The notes beneath the pieces were generated by a model. The model did not search any database. It was not told the DNA's origin and worked only from the letters and a program-made list of their open reading frames with translations. 41,368 nt of DNA from Pseudofrankia saprophytica (GTDB taxonomy: Bacteria; Actinomycetota; Actinomycetes; Frankiales; Frankiaceae), in NCBI RefSeq assembly GCF_000235425.2, contig NZ_KI912266.1, positions 2,575,817-2,617,184 of the forward strand, given 5' to 3'. The translations under genes and the position numbers were made by a program. Each line of letters starts with the position of its first letter. The first letter of the stretch is position 1. Positions 7,104 through 16,128 of this stretch are shown here, piece after piece.

Positions 7104-10100
7104 TCAGGCCGGGTCGTCGTCCAGGCCGTCGAGCTCGGACAGCGTGATCGGGGACCACCGCCGAGCGAGCTCGCTCGGCGCGGCGCCGGCCGGGCCGGCC
7201 AGCTGGTCGGCGAAGGCCGCTTCGGGTGTTCCCGTCCGTCCGCCGGCGGGGCCGATGCCGGCGGCGGACAGACGCGGCCACAGGCTGGCCAGCGCCGCCG
7301 CCTGGTCGCTTTCGAAGTCGGACTGGCGGACGCGCCAGAACGGCCAGCCGGCCCGGCGCAACTGCCGCTCCCTGGCGAAGTCGTGGGCGACCTGCGTCGG
7401 CGTGCCGGCCTCGTCGCCGTCGCACTCGACCGCGAGCCTCGCCCGGCCGCCCGCGACGACCAGGTCGATGCGCCGGCCGTTCACCTCGACCTGCGGCAGG
7501 ACGCGGTAGCCGGCGGCGGTGAGCTCGCGGAAGACACGCTGCTCGAACAGCGAGTCGAAGCGGGGATGCGGGATGTCCGGCGGCACCTGGTCGAGCCGTG
7601 GTGGCTCGTCGACGTCCGCCCACTGGGCACGGCCGCGGTCCAGCACGTAGCCGAGCTGGCTGTGCCGAAGGTCGTCGGGCCGCAGGTCCTCGAGGCCGAC
7701 CGAGTGGAACAGCCACATCTGGTCGCGGGCGCGTGAGGCGGCCACGTTGAACCGCCGCTGGTACTCCTGCCGCCTCAGCGCCGGGGTGGCGGTGTCCGGT
7801 GTGACCACCATCGAGAGGAACACCACGTCGCGCTCGTCGCCCTGGAAGTCCGGGGGCGTGCCGACCCGCAGCCGGCGGCGCTGCTGCTCGGCGGCCGACA
7901 TCCGCGCGGCGAGCAGCGAGCGCAGGAGCTCCGCCTGCCCGGTGCCCTGCAGGACGACGACGCCGAACGAGGCCCCGTCGTAGCGTGGGTCGGCCGCGCA
8001 GCTCAGCACCTCCGAGACCAGCGCCTCCGCCTCCGCCGGGTTGCGCAGCGCGGCGCCGGCACCGGTGGTGTAGGCGTGCGGCACGTGGCGGGCGCGCAGC
8101 GGCGGCAGCCGGTCGGCGCCGAACTGCCGCAGCGGCACCAGCGGTGCGTCCCGGTAGAACATCGCCGACGACCACTCGATGATCTCCGGCATGCAGCGGA
8201 AATGCTCGCGCAGGCGGATGACCTCACCGAACCGGGTCCGCAGCAGGCTGAACAGGCTCGACCGGGGAGTGAAGGAGACGCGCAGCCAGCCGGGCAGGTC
8301 GGGCAGCAACGCGTCGAGGCGGCGGAACATCGGGTCCAGGTCATCGTCGTCGATGACCGGGCCCTCCGCGCCGGCGCCGGCGCGCGCCGCGCTCACCGGC
8401 GCGGGCGCCGGGGCGCACTGCCGGTCGTCCCCGACGATGATCACTCGGGGGGCCAGCCACAGGAGGAACAGGCTGTCCAGACCGGCCTGGCTGCCCTCGT
8501 CCACGATCACCACGTCGAAGCTGTCGCGGACGGCCGGGATCGTGGCGAGCACGTCGGCGATCGGCATGACCCAGGCGGGCACGGCTGTCTGGGCGATCGC
8601 CATCGCCTCCCTGGCGGCCTGCCGGTAGCGGTCGGCGTGCCGGCCGGTGAACCGGCCGCCGCCGGCGACGGCGTCCGCGTAGGCCCGCAGCGCGGCCGAC
8701 TCCCGGGTGCCCATCCGCTCCAGGCAGTGCTTCCAGGCCTTGGCGCCGGCGAGCTCGGCCGTGGTGGCGGCGACGGCGTCCTCGGCGGCGTCGAGCTGGG
8801 CGTCGAGGTCAGGCGCGCCGGCGGTGGTCGCCCGGCCGGTCCGGGAGGCCGTGAGCCAGCCGGCGGCCAGCCCCCAGGACCAGGCGGCCTCGAACCGCGC
8901 CAGGCGATGGCGCCACTCGTCGTCATCCACGGGCTCGGAGGCGCCACGCCGGTCGGCCGTGCCGACGGCGGCCGCGGCGGAGAGCAGCTGTTCCGCCAGC
9001 GCCGGGTGGGCGCTGGTCAGTCGCTCGAGCAGGACGGTGCGGCGGGCGGCCTCCCGCCGGGCACCGACCGCGGCCAGCAGCCCGGCGCGCGCCAGCTGGT
9101 ACTCGGCGAGATCACGGGCCGCCAGCGCGCCCGCGAGCCGGTGCAGCTGCGCGGGGAATCCGCTCCTGGTCGCGGCCGCCTCGACCTCGGCCCGCGGCCG
9201 CTCGATCTCCGCCCGGGCCTCGGCCGCGGCCAGGCGCAGCCGGGCGAGCGCCAGAGCCCCGGTCAGGGCTCGCAACGCGTCGGTCGATCCAAGGTCGACC
9301 AGGCCGCTGCCGAGACCGGGGCCGGCCAGGTGCACACCGGTCTCCGCGCCCAGCGACGCCAGCAGGGAGTGGACCTGGTCACGGGCGGTGAGGACGGCGA
9401 CGACGACGGCCAGCGCGTCCTGCGCCTCGGTGAGCCGGGCGAGCCGGATCTCGGGGGCCACGATCTCGCCCCCTGGCTCGCCGGGCGCGCCCTGCCCCGC
9501 GGGCTGGCCGGGACGGCCCCCGGCGCCGGTCGGAGCGGGTGAGCCAGCCGTCTCGCCCGGCCCGCGGGCGTCGCCGGACCCGAAGCCGACGGCGACCCCC
9601 GCCAGTGCCCAGGCCCTGGCGGCGGCGTCGATCGCGACCTCGGCGCGCAACCGGGCGAGTACCAGGTCCAACAGCTCGGGCGTGCTGGGCGCGCGACCGT
9701 CGACCGTGGCCTCGGCGAGCAGGTCGGCCGCGTCCTTCTGGACCCGGGAACGGAACATCCGGCGCAGGCTGCCGCCCTGGTCCAGGTGCCCGCGCAACGC
9801 CTCGGCGGCGGCGAGCATGCGCGCGGCCGGTGTCCCCGTCGGGTCGGTCGTGCCCGCCGGGGCCTGGGACGCGGCGGCCGGCAGGGTGACGGCATGCAGG
9901 CCGAGCGTGGCGAGCGCCTCGGTCGCCTCGGCGAGCGCCGGCGCCGCCGAGGTGACCTTCCCCCACACGGCGCCGTCGCGGCCGGCGAGCGCGTCGTCGA
10001 GCGCGCGCGGAATCCAGGGTGCGCGCCGGGTGGTCCGGCGGGCCTCCTCCAGCGCCCGGGTGACGGCCTGTACGGCGGCGGTGAGCCGGTCCAGGCCCGC

Positions 10101-15500: not shown

Positions 15501-16128
15501 CGCGGCAGTCGAAGGAACCGCGCTGGCCGAAGGGACCATGCTGGCCGTGGGAACCGCGGCGGTCCGGCCGGCCGCGGCCGCGTCCGAGGCGGAGGTCCGG
15601 CTCGGCGTCGAGCTGCTGGCGCCGGCGGCCGCGGCTGCCGGCGACGATTTGGCCGGGTTCCTGACCACGGTCTCGCTCGCGACCGAGGCCGATACCCTGG
15701 ACCCGCGTGCCGACCGGATCTCGCTGCTGACGCTGCACGCGGCCAAGGGCCTCGAGTTCGGGCTCGTCTTCATCGTCGGTTGCGAGGACGGCCTGCTCCC
15801 GCTCACCTGGGGCGGTCCGGGCCGCGCCACGGCCGGGAGCAAGGGAACAGGAGTCAAGGGCGCGGCGGACGGCACGACCAGCGACCCGGCGTACGGGCCG
15901 CTGGCTGAGGAGCGGCGGCTGTTCTTCGTCGGTGTCACCAGGGCGCGCGGCCGGCTGGTGCTCAGCCATGTCACCGGCGCAGGCTCCGGCGCCCGCCGGA
16001 CGGCCGCCCGCGCGCCGTCGCCGTTCCTGGCCGACCTGGACGCGGTTTTGCTGGACCGCCGCTCCGGCCGCCCCGGGCAGCGCGAGCCCCGGCCCCGTCC
16101 CGCCGGCCAGCAGCTTCGCCTGCTGTGA
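12520..16128 (+). CDS. EndoQ/YqxK-like PHP nuclease fused to UvrD/Rep-type SF1 helicase
   Basis: This is a 1202-residue protein. The GTG at 12520 is used here; a second GTG at 12535 has a better-placed GGGAGCAGG. Residues 1-46 are Gly/Asp/Pro repeats. The PHP domain follows with metal motifs ADLHVHSRYSRA (near 51), GTGDFTHP (86), STEIS, VHHLLYAP, PAHVWTPWF and SNSDAHSP (266). A Cys cluster (C323, C339-x2-C342) and a helix-hairpin-helix-like region (about 365-440) come next. This is the layout of endonuclease Q, which nicks DNA 5' of deaminated bases. From about 520 a full helicase follows: Walker A AGPGTGKTRT (544), TTFHGL, VDEYQDVDETQ (723), GDPDQAIYSFRGAD, LTRNYRS, LTLHAAKGLEF and FVGVTRARGRL (1137). 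An Ala/Glu-rich repeat (15455-15560) interrupts domain 2B. The fusion suggests coupled incision and unwinding of damaged DNA; this is inference. Confidence 0.88.
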   Translation: MAGAGVTDAAGDTGDMGDMDGPPDGDTGGPPDMDGPGAGPRGGQTRLPFYADLHVHSRYSRACSRDCDLEHLAWWAARKGIGVVGTGDFTHPAWARELEEKLVPAEPGLFRLTPDLERDVLRRLPASCRTATRFMLSTEISTIYKKGDKTRKVHHLLYAPDRESAGRITGALAKIGNLAADGRPILGLDSRHLLEITLQSHPASYLVPAHVWTPWFAVLGSKSGFDAVDDCYGDLAHEVFALETGLSADPEMFWRISGLDRYRLVSNSDAHSPPMLGREATALSCELDYFAVRDALRTGDGYAGTVEFFPEEGKYHHDGHRACGVRFTPEETKATGGACPACGKPLTVGVLHRVDALADRERSTAPTTAGRFRSFVALPEIVGEILGVGPKSKAVAAQVGALVERLGPELGILGDVELAAIGEVGSAELVEAVGRLRRGEVVREAGFDGEYGVIRMFGPGELAGDAATLFDLDSPAAAAKPKRQRRSAVAPPGQERSPEADTRTDLVGPETSPTERGSSVLDGLDPDQRAAAAVPDGPLVILAGPGTGKTRTLVHAVAYRVLERGVPAGECLAVTFTRRAAGELAERLAGMLGPDAERVTATTFHGLGLLVIREQHARLARGPGVQVADEAVRAELLAEALGDATVAVRAAAARRIGDLKRRRALGEPVRGDELAGALARYDAALREHGLVDLDDLLALPLALLTAEPELAAHYQQRFRHVWVDEYQDVDETQYRLLRILCPPDGNLCVIGDPDQAIYSFRGADVGFFLRFERDFPTARRASLTRNYRSTATIVAAARSAIAPATFVPDRSLVAVHPDGPDAASARAKNAGSRPEPRRRAGPGGEPVLVRACATEAEEALAVVDTIEEALGGTSFHALDSGLDGSAGSLLSFADIAVLYRTSRQAEPVMAALAKRGFPFQRRSHGPLADAPGVAALLAELRGHGDGPARSVSAALRDAAARAAERAAGRGTALTAVLAAEAAEAAEETALAEATAAVEGTALAEGTMLAVGTAAVRPAAAASEAEVRLGVELLAPAAAAAGDDLAGFLTTVSLATEADTLDPRADRISLLTLHAAKGLEFGLVFIVGCEDGLLPLTWGGPGRATAGSKGTGVKGAADGTTSDPAYGPLAEERRLFFVGVTRARGRLVLSHVTGAGSGARRTAARAPSPFLADLDAVLLDRRSGRPGQREPRPRPAGQQLRLL
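16109..16126 (+). terminator. Weak hairpin over the PHP-UvrD stop codon
   Basis: CAGCAG and CTGCTG flank a short CTTCGC loop immediately before the TGA at 16126-16128. There is no T run. It may help end transcription of the helicase gene before aftD, but the stem is short. Confidence 0.25.

Follow-up and report, generated by a model that had tools for sequence, protein, structure and literature searches.

What is to be made of a bacterial locus in which two giant genes, each coding for a helicase joined to a nuclease, stand head to head: do the products work together and, if not, what might each do on its own? The question is raised by a 41,368-nucleotide stretch of Pseudofrankia saprophytica DNA (contig NZ_KI912266.1, positions 2,575,817 to 2,617,184; termed here the window, at its full length), for which an earlier note had proposed a joint DNA defence or repair module. 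Both open reading frames (ORFs) that it reported are confirmed in position and length, 7104..12167 on the minus strand (1,687 amino acids) and 12520..16128 on the plus strand (1,202 amino acids). So are its domain calls for the second gene, which matches PfuEndoQ and UvrD/PcrA/Rep, and its view that helicase and nuclease motifs are intact in both, Walker A, Walker B and later motifs being found in one and PHP, zinc-ribbon and superfamily 1A (SF1A) motifs in the other. The reading favoured here, with moderate confidence, is that the second product, EndoQ-UvrD, is a self-contained excision-repair enzyme, recruited by the clamp, that nicks and unwinds DNA at deaminated bases, and that the two genes are chromosomal neighbours and not a system.

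Anatomy of the EndoQ-UvrD protein

The features of the fusion on which the argument turns are the following.

12520..16128, plus strand: EndoQ-UvrD fusion, 1,202 amino acids, conserved part from near residue 48 (homology matches, motifs)
12670..13887, plus strand: EndoQ part (PHP metallo-nuclease, zinc ribbon and helical C-terminal part), residues 51-456; catalytic E139, H154, H210; pocket G245, S247 (homology, model, alignment)
13474..13548, plus strand: zinc-ribbon-like ligands H320, C323, C339, C342 (alignment)
14077..16047, plus strand: UvrD/PcrA-type SF1A helicase, residues 520-1176 (homology, motifs, model)
16111..16125, plus strand: pentapeptide QLRLL of beta-clamp type, residues 1198-1202; the tail around it is modelled with low confidence and is probably flexible (motif count, model)

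Following some 47 low-complexity residues at the N-terminus, residues 51-456 match PfuEndoQ along the whole length of that enzyme (PDB 5zb8, 7k30; E ~1e-39, or 4e-41 for the part alone). In PfuEndoQ, E76, H84 and H139 are reported to be zinc ligands whose substitution abolishes cleavage, and the exclusion of T and A from its pocket is ascribed to H139, G169 and S171 (PMC8307549; here and below, papers are cited from extracts). Their equivalents in the window protein are E139, matched to E76 by eye, and H154, H210, G245 and S247 from a computed alignment. Relatives were sought by a tblastn scan of 84,980 species genomes, which gave 438 stretches; the best 80 of the 438 were studied, L018 (submitter's name Frankia alni) being retained, and the rest, known by tblastn only, may include plain UvrD helicases. 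Among 81 aligned rows, all five residues are conserved in 79/79 that reach them, and D269 and H271 in 80/80 (start codons were set by rule, and some rows therefore lack the first PHP residues). In the zinc ribbon, 79 of 81 rows have His where EndoQ has its first Cys, and the remaining three Cys are kept in 80/80, so that the ligand set is HCCC and not EndoQ's four cysteines. Judged from the alignment, this first-Cys-to-His change is a simple marker of the fused EndoQ type. The EndoQ-like part also points to deaminated DNA as the likely target, as the earlier note had it.

The second part, residues 520-1176, matches UvrD/PcrA/Rep helicases (best E 5.6e-67) and has SF1A motifs Q and I-VI, with K503, T504, D678, E679, Q681 and D682 (aligned-piece numbering) invariant across 42 rows. 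In an AlphaFold model of the fusion built on a 42-row alignment (mean predicted local distance difference test score 81.7), there are two confident parts, a low-confidence linker at 419-470 and a low-confidence tail at 1137-1156 (model numbering). Foldseek with this model ranks UvrD first (E 5.4e-41) and also finds PfuEndoQ (E 2.4e-30), on whose structures 5zb8 and 7k30 the predicted EndoQ part lies with a root-mean-square deviation of 2.5-2.7 Å and a template modelling score, by target length, of 0.88-0.89. SF1A motifs and fold are thus shared with UvrD, PcrA and Rep; the fusion differs from them in its N-terminal EndoQ part, its C-terminal clamp-type tail and its scores, which are far under the equivalog cut-offs (pcrA 286.5 versus 911.2; uvrD 234.5 versus 1144.45).

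The third part is short. Of the 79 proteins with an intact end, 68 have a pentapeptide Q[LMV]x[LF][LFIVM] within their final 12 residues, when 0.24 would be expected from its rate elsewhere in the same proteins; QLRLL, QLELF, QLSLL, QLRLI, QLDLF and QLSLF are commonest, and the published beta-clamp consensus is QL[S/D]LF (PMC3919608). Among the other 11, five carry a short extension after the motif, four have Q..LF alone and two (L017, L080) have none in the frame read. (L021 and L077, cut by contig ends, are omitted from these counts; L041 and L087 lack part of the front and retain the tail.) As controls, the motif ends 2 of 908 neighbouring ORFs, some of which may not be genes, and is missing from all four UvrD-like ORFs with an intact end in the P. 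saprophytica genome, these four being four genes and two further cut ORFs seeming to be part of the same genes. A basic tendency aside, the residues preceding the motif are more variable (the entropy table is limited to pattern-fitting rows and is zero at Q by construction), the pattern expected of a short linear motif carried by a flexible tail. The tail looks made for docking on the replication clamp. Endonuclease Q proteins (PfuEndoQ, TkoEndoQ, Bacillus pumilus EndoQ) share with the fusion the PHP nuclease, zinc ribbon, helical C-terminal part, fold, catalytic and pocket residues, and a clamp-type motif at the C-terminus. The fusion adds a UvrD-type helicase, has the clamp motif after it, uses HCCC ligands and scores under the TIGR00375 cut-off. 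It seems, from this arrangement, to have retained EndoQ's clamp tether with the helicase placed ahead of it.

A possible repair route and its competitors

From this anatomy, the EndoQ part would nick the strand immediately 5' of a uracil, hypoxanthine or abasic site. The EndoQ cut leaves a 3'-OH and a 5'-phosphate, the latter on the lesion side (PMC4357722, PMC4858679), and UvrD moves 3'-5' and peels excised segments away (PMC7776575). A UvrD-type 3'-5' motor could load at the nick on the opposite, intact strand, move towards the lesion and lift the lesion-bearing strand as a 5' flap, which DNA polymerase I or a flap nuclease would then remove; in the archaeal EndoQ model, polymerase strand displacement and Fen1 are placed at this flap step (PMC4357722). 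The QLxLF-type tail is predicted to dock the enzyme on the sliding clamp, so that it would act at the fork, in its wake or during repair synthesis, and polymerase and nickase would be brought together.

Other origins of the lesion would fit the same chemistry. Removal, coupled to replication, of misincorporated dUMP or dIMP, with another source of lesion in place of deamination, has the clamp-type tail (68/79) in its favour and nothing direct against it, and is inseparable from deamination by sequence; it is unlikely on present judgement, though the best placed of the alternatives. A broader claim, that EndoQ-UvrD is a widespread one-protein excision-repair machine, a lesion nickase, strand-displacing helicase and clamp tether in one, excising deaminated or misincorporated bases at the fork without a glycosylase, could well hold, with the balance tipped slightly against it.

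Several observations count against an EndoQ-UvrD enzyme devoted to excision of deaminated bases. The EndoQ part scores 123.6 bits where the curated NCBIfam cut-off for TIGR00375 is 326.6, and because of this it is called EndoQ-like and not a TIGR00375 member; one zinc Cys has become His; and the tail motif is missing from two of the 79 proteins. Three matches to the uracil-DNA glycosylase superfamily exceed their cut-offs in the organism's own genome, so that EndoQ-UvrD would be a parallel route and not the sole means of uracil removal. The fusion is also rare in its own phylum, TIGR00375 being matched in 5 of 198 genomes including its own, four of them strongly; of the other four matches, two lie in frames of 1,088 and 1,134 amino acids and one in a frame of 527, and the last is weak and short. 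A review suggests that bacterial EndoQ may also serve antiviral defence (PMC8307549), and the adjacency to the helicase-nuclease gene in 9 of 11 informative Frankiaceae genomes, described below, leaves room for a local functional link.

The review's suggestion leads to the next alternative, that EndoQ-UvrD is, or also is, an anti-phage nuclease directed against phages with uracil or otherwise altered bases. GajB and RTasHel profiles do match the helicase part, which may hold for any UvrD, yet the distribution of the protein is that of a chromosomal gene. In a collection of 72,556 plasmids, the whole fusion has no match at E 1e-100 and the EndoQ part none at E 1e-10, nor is the EndoQ part matched at E 1e-5 among 50,697 phage records. 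The best 80 relatives carry 15 NCBI phylum labels (77/80 are labelled; many are metagenome-assembled genomes and some labels are doubtful). In a quick, long-branched tree of 77 rows, from which L021, L041, L077 and L087 were omitted and which was read solely for grouping by phylum label, the labels need 20 changes (minimum 14) against a shuffled mean of 41.4; the clustering counts against an anti-phage role. So do the absence by Pfam of any defence gene among likely neighbours and the tail, which points to replication or repair. Such a role is rated a little lower than misincorporated nucleotides. As to a partner of any kind elsewhere, when the neighbouring ORFs of 67 loci were compared all-against-all, no conserved partner gene emerged: most clusters were confined to a lineage and held no more than 6 loci, and the largest, with 10 loci, seems to be made up in part of antisense ORFs that overlap the fusion gene or lie close to it.

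More doubtful again is a change of specificity, whereby the EndoQ part would attack another lesion, a flap or a mismatch and the enzyme would be a general structure-specific nickase-helicase. The score under the EndoQ equivalog cut-off and the HCCC set, with His in 79/81, could be so explained; retention of the catalytic and base-excluding pocket residues in every row reaching them, and of the full EndoQ length and fold, argues for the original chemistry.

Returning to the excision-repair enzyme proposed here, its parts are already known and their combination appears new. No account of an EndoQ-UvrD fusion was found in the open-licence literature, and papers outside it may describe one. The extracts of PMC11354406, PMC3820547, PMC3919608, PMC3710099 and PMC10250203 hold no such account; those of PMC4357722, PMC6202378 and PMC4858679 have no mention of UvrD, and those of PMC8307549, PMC7690668, PMC7776575 and PMC9667741 mention it without an EndoQ fusion. 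The EndoQ papers among these present the enzyme as mainly archaeal, with a few bacterial homologues, and one of them states that its manner of working in repair had not been shown. Fusion to a helicase of the strand-peeling kind, together with a near-constant clamp motif, would suggest both EndoQ's next repair step and a link to replication; if true, replication-linked repair by one protein would span organisms under 15 phylum labels.

The divergent helicase-nuclease gene as neighbour

The features of the other gene, here termed HELN, and of the gap are as follows.

7104..12167, minus strand: HELN, superfamily 1 (SF1; UPF1-like) helicase with C-terminal Vsr-type MTES_1575 restriction endonuclease (REase), 1,687 amino acids (ORF, Pfam, PADLOC, NCBIfam, G+C by codon position)
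7269..7547, minus strand: HELN MTES_1575 REase domain, residues 1541-1633 (PF18741, E 1.2e-25)
8487..8510, minus strand: HELN Walker B region VIVDEGSQ, residues 1220-1227 (motif search)
10923..10946, minus strand: HELN Walker A GPPGTGKT, residues 408-415 (motif search)
12168..12519, no strand: 352 bp between the divergent genes, in which no element stood out as clearly conserved (alignment)

Pfam gives HELN the helicase domains AAA_12 and AAA_11 and, at E 1.2e-25, PF18741, all exceeding their cut-offs; helicase motifs later than Walker A and B were also located. The earlier assignment of its nuclease as PD-(D/E)XK is right in that there is a nuclease domain, which is more exactly a Vsr-type REase, the class in which MTES_1575 has been placed (PMC3710099). 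Like the Hhe, ProA and PDC-S37 helicase-nucleases, HELN has an SF1 helicase with a terminal nuclease domain, and the stretches matched extend into the MTES_1575-type REase. However, it scores 147.1 bits against a curated cut-off of 1500 for ProA and 97.2 against 2000 for Hhe, and DUF4011 is not among its Pfam matches. HELN stands as a protein in its own right, distantly related to the Hhe/ProA-type helicase-nucleases. Further MTES_1575 helicases occur away from EndoQ in Frankiaceae genomes (L110:2494-7440, L112:3805-8364), and these score somewhat above HELN for ProA and Hhe, yet far under the cut-offs.

Whether the pair is a unit was approached with 13 Frankiaceae loci from the relative scan and with 21 whole genomes, sets that overlap in species and are not independent. 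HELN is upstream of EndoQ-UvrD in 12 of the 13 loci, in L014 as a short piece at a contig end; the exception, L010, has other coding in the upstream 900 bases. TIGR00375 is matched in 11 of the 21 genomes, all of one family (11/13 of that family; 0/8 of the genomes outside it); PF18741 has a match in 20 of the 21, which exceeds the cut-off in 15. In eight of the 11, HELN and EndoQ share a contig, on opposite strands and separated by 5-7 kb, and in a ninth, G003, an N-terminal part of HELN is beside EndoQ at a contig end, so that the two are adjacent in 9 of the 11 Frankiaceae genomes that are informative (the fragmented G007 and G010, without an EndoQ match, are excluded). In G005, probably the organism of L010 and probably Pseudofrankia asymbiotica, HELN is still flanked by FmdA/ThiL on its usual side, with EndoQ on a different contig; G009 (L106) has about 8 kb upstream of EndoQ-UvrD without HELN. 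Around the pair is a block of synteny, bounded on one side by AIRS/ThiL-like and FmdA-like genes and, in many loci, on the other by genes for a methyltransferase, an aminotransferase or a GGDEF protein. Because of these counts, the shared block and the split or absent cases, adjacency is best seen as a feature of one family, within a longer synteny and breakable.

Outside Frankiaceae, HELN is beside the fusion in none of 67 loci, 59 of which have at least 2 kb upstream, and its sole weak match there (L068, E 0.007) is inside the fusion gene itself. The expected recurrence of the pair among relatives, then, is seen within the family and stops at its border. The shared promoter region that had been proposed is not borne out, there being no clearly conserved element of the 352-bp gap among five aligned sequences, one of them L010, which lacks the first gene at that place. 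HELN relatives occur in 44 plasmid records, none spanning 80% of the query, and in the three plasmid neighbourhoods opened no EndoQ-UvrD gene is listed, the gene table being incomplete there.

The two genes are probably chromosomal neighbours and not partners in a system. That they form a divergently transcribed functional pair acting on foreign or deaminated DNA, as first proposed, draws on the head-to-head adjacency in 9/11 and on HELN's resemblance to PDC-S37, ProA and Hhe proteins, and is the least probable reading of all, the pair being split or absent in 2/11 and found at none of the 59 loci elsewhere, the same block holding other chromosomal neighbours, the gap having no conserved element among the five sequences, and HELN having plasmid relatives where EndoQ has none in the plasmid collection; a paired module was rejected.

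Two neighbourhoods of HELN and its relatives deserve separate mention. In G005 (L104:5112-10263) an EccA/SpoVK-like AAA gene with beta-helix repeats is directly upstream of HELN, and two WXG100-like short ORFs, recognized by eye, are farther away. On a Streptomyces chartreusis plasmid (L092:8989-22188), a TIGR02678/79/80 cassette, names that we take to mark Wadjet-like systems, is about 2 kb downstream of a HELN relative, and a 280-amino-acid gene of unassigned type follows that relative directly.

Genomic setting

The host genome is of 9.98 Mb, its closest kin among the relatives found being Pseudofrankia, and the G+C content of the window is 70-79% in 2-kb steps. By codon position G+C is 0.81/0.57/0.95 in HELN and 0.78/0.55/0.93 in EndoQ-UvrD, resembling the window's other likely genes. 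Hydantoinase-, ThiL- and FmdA-like genes are upstream of the pair; downstream are genes resembling those for AftD glycosyltransferase and wax-ester synthase, along with others of metabolism and signalling. The immediate neighbours are these.

5149..7059, plus strand: FmdA-like gene, HELN's neighbour in most Frankiaceae loci reaching that far (domain scan, locus comparison)
16279..20553, plus strand: AftD-like arabinofuranosyltransferase, accompanying EndoQ-UvrD in L009, L010, L011 and L067 (domain scan, locus comparison)

The window gave no match to Rfam at the gathering threshold and none in a tRNA scan. Proximity to defence genes, which would have suited a joint defence system, was not seen: none is found by Pfam among the window's other 18 likely genes. 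PADLOC, run on 7 of its 20 likely genes, gave beyond the pair, in five further genes, a single match, mad3 (1.4e-10) at 40664-41290, where the NCBIfam name is SbcC. A defence island was therefore rejected, the only PADLOC match being on a piece of SbcC. That SbcC looks split, into N-terminal (544 amino acids) and C-terminal (208 amino acids) ORFs that overlap in different frames (window 40664-41290, minus strand; L095:2220-3854, minus strand) and adjoin SbcD (L095:3927-5102); it appears to reflect a frame break or sequencing error.

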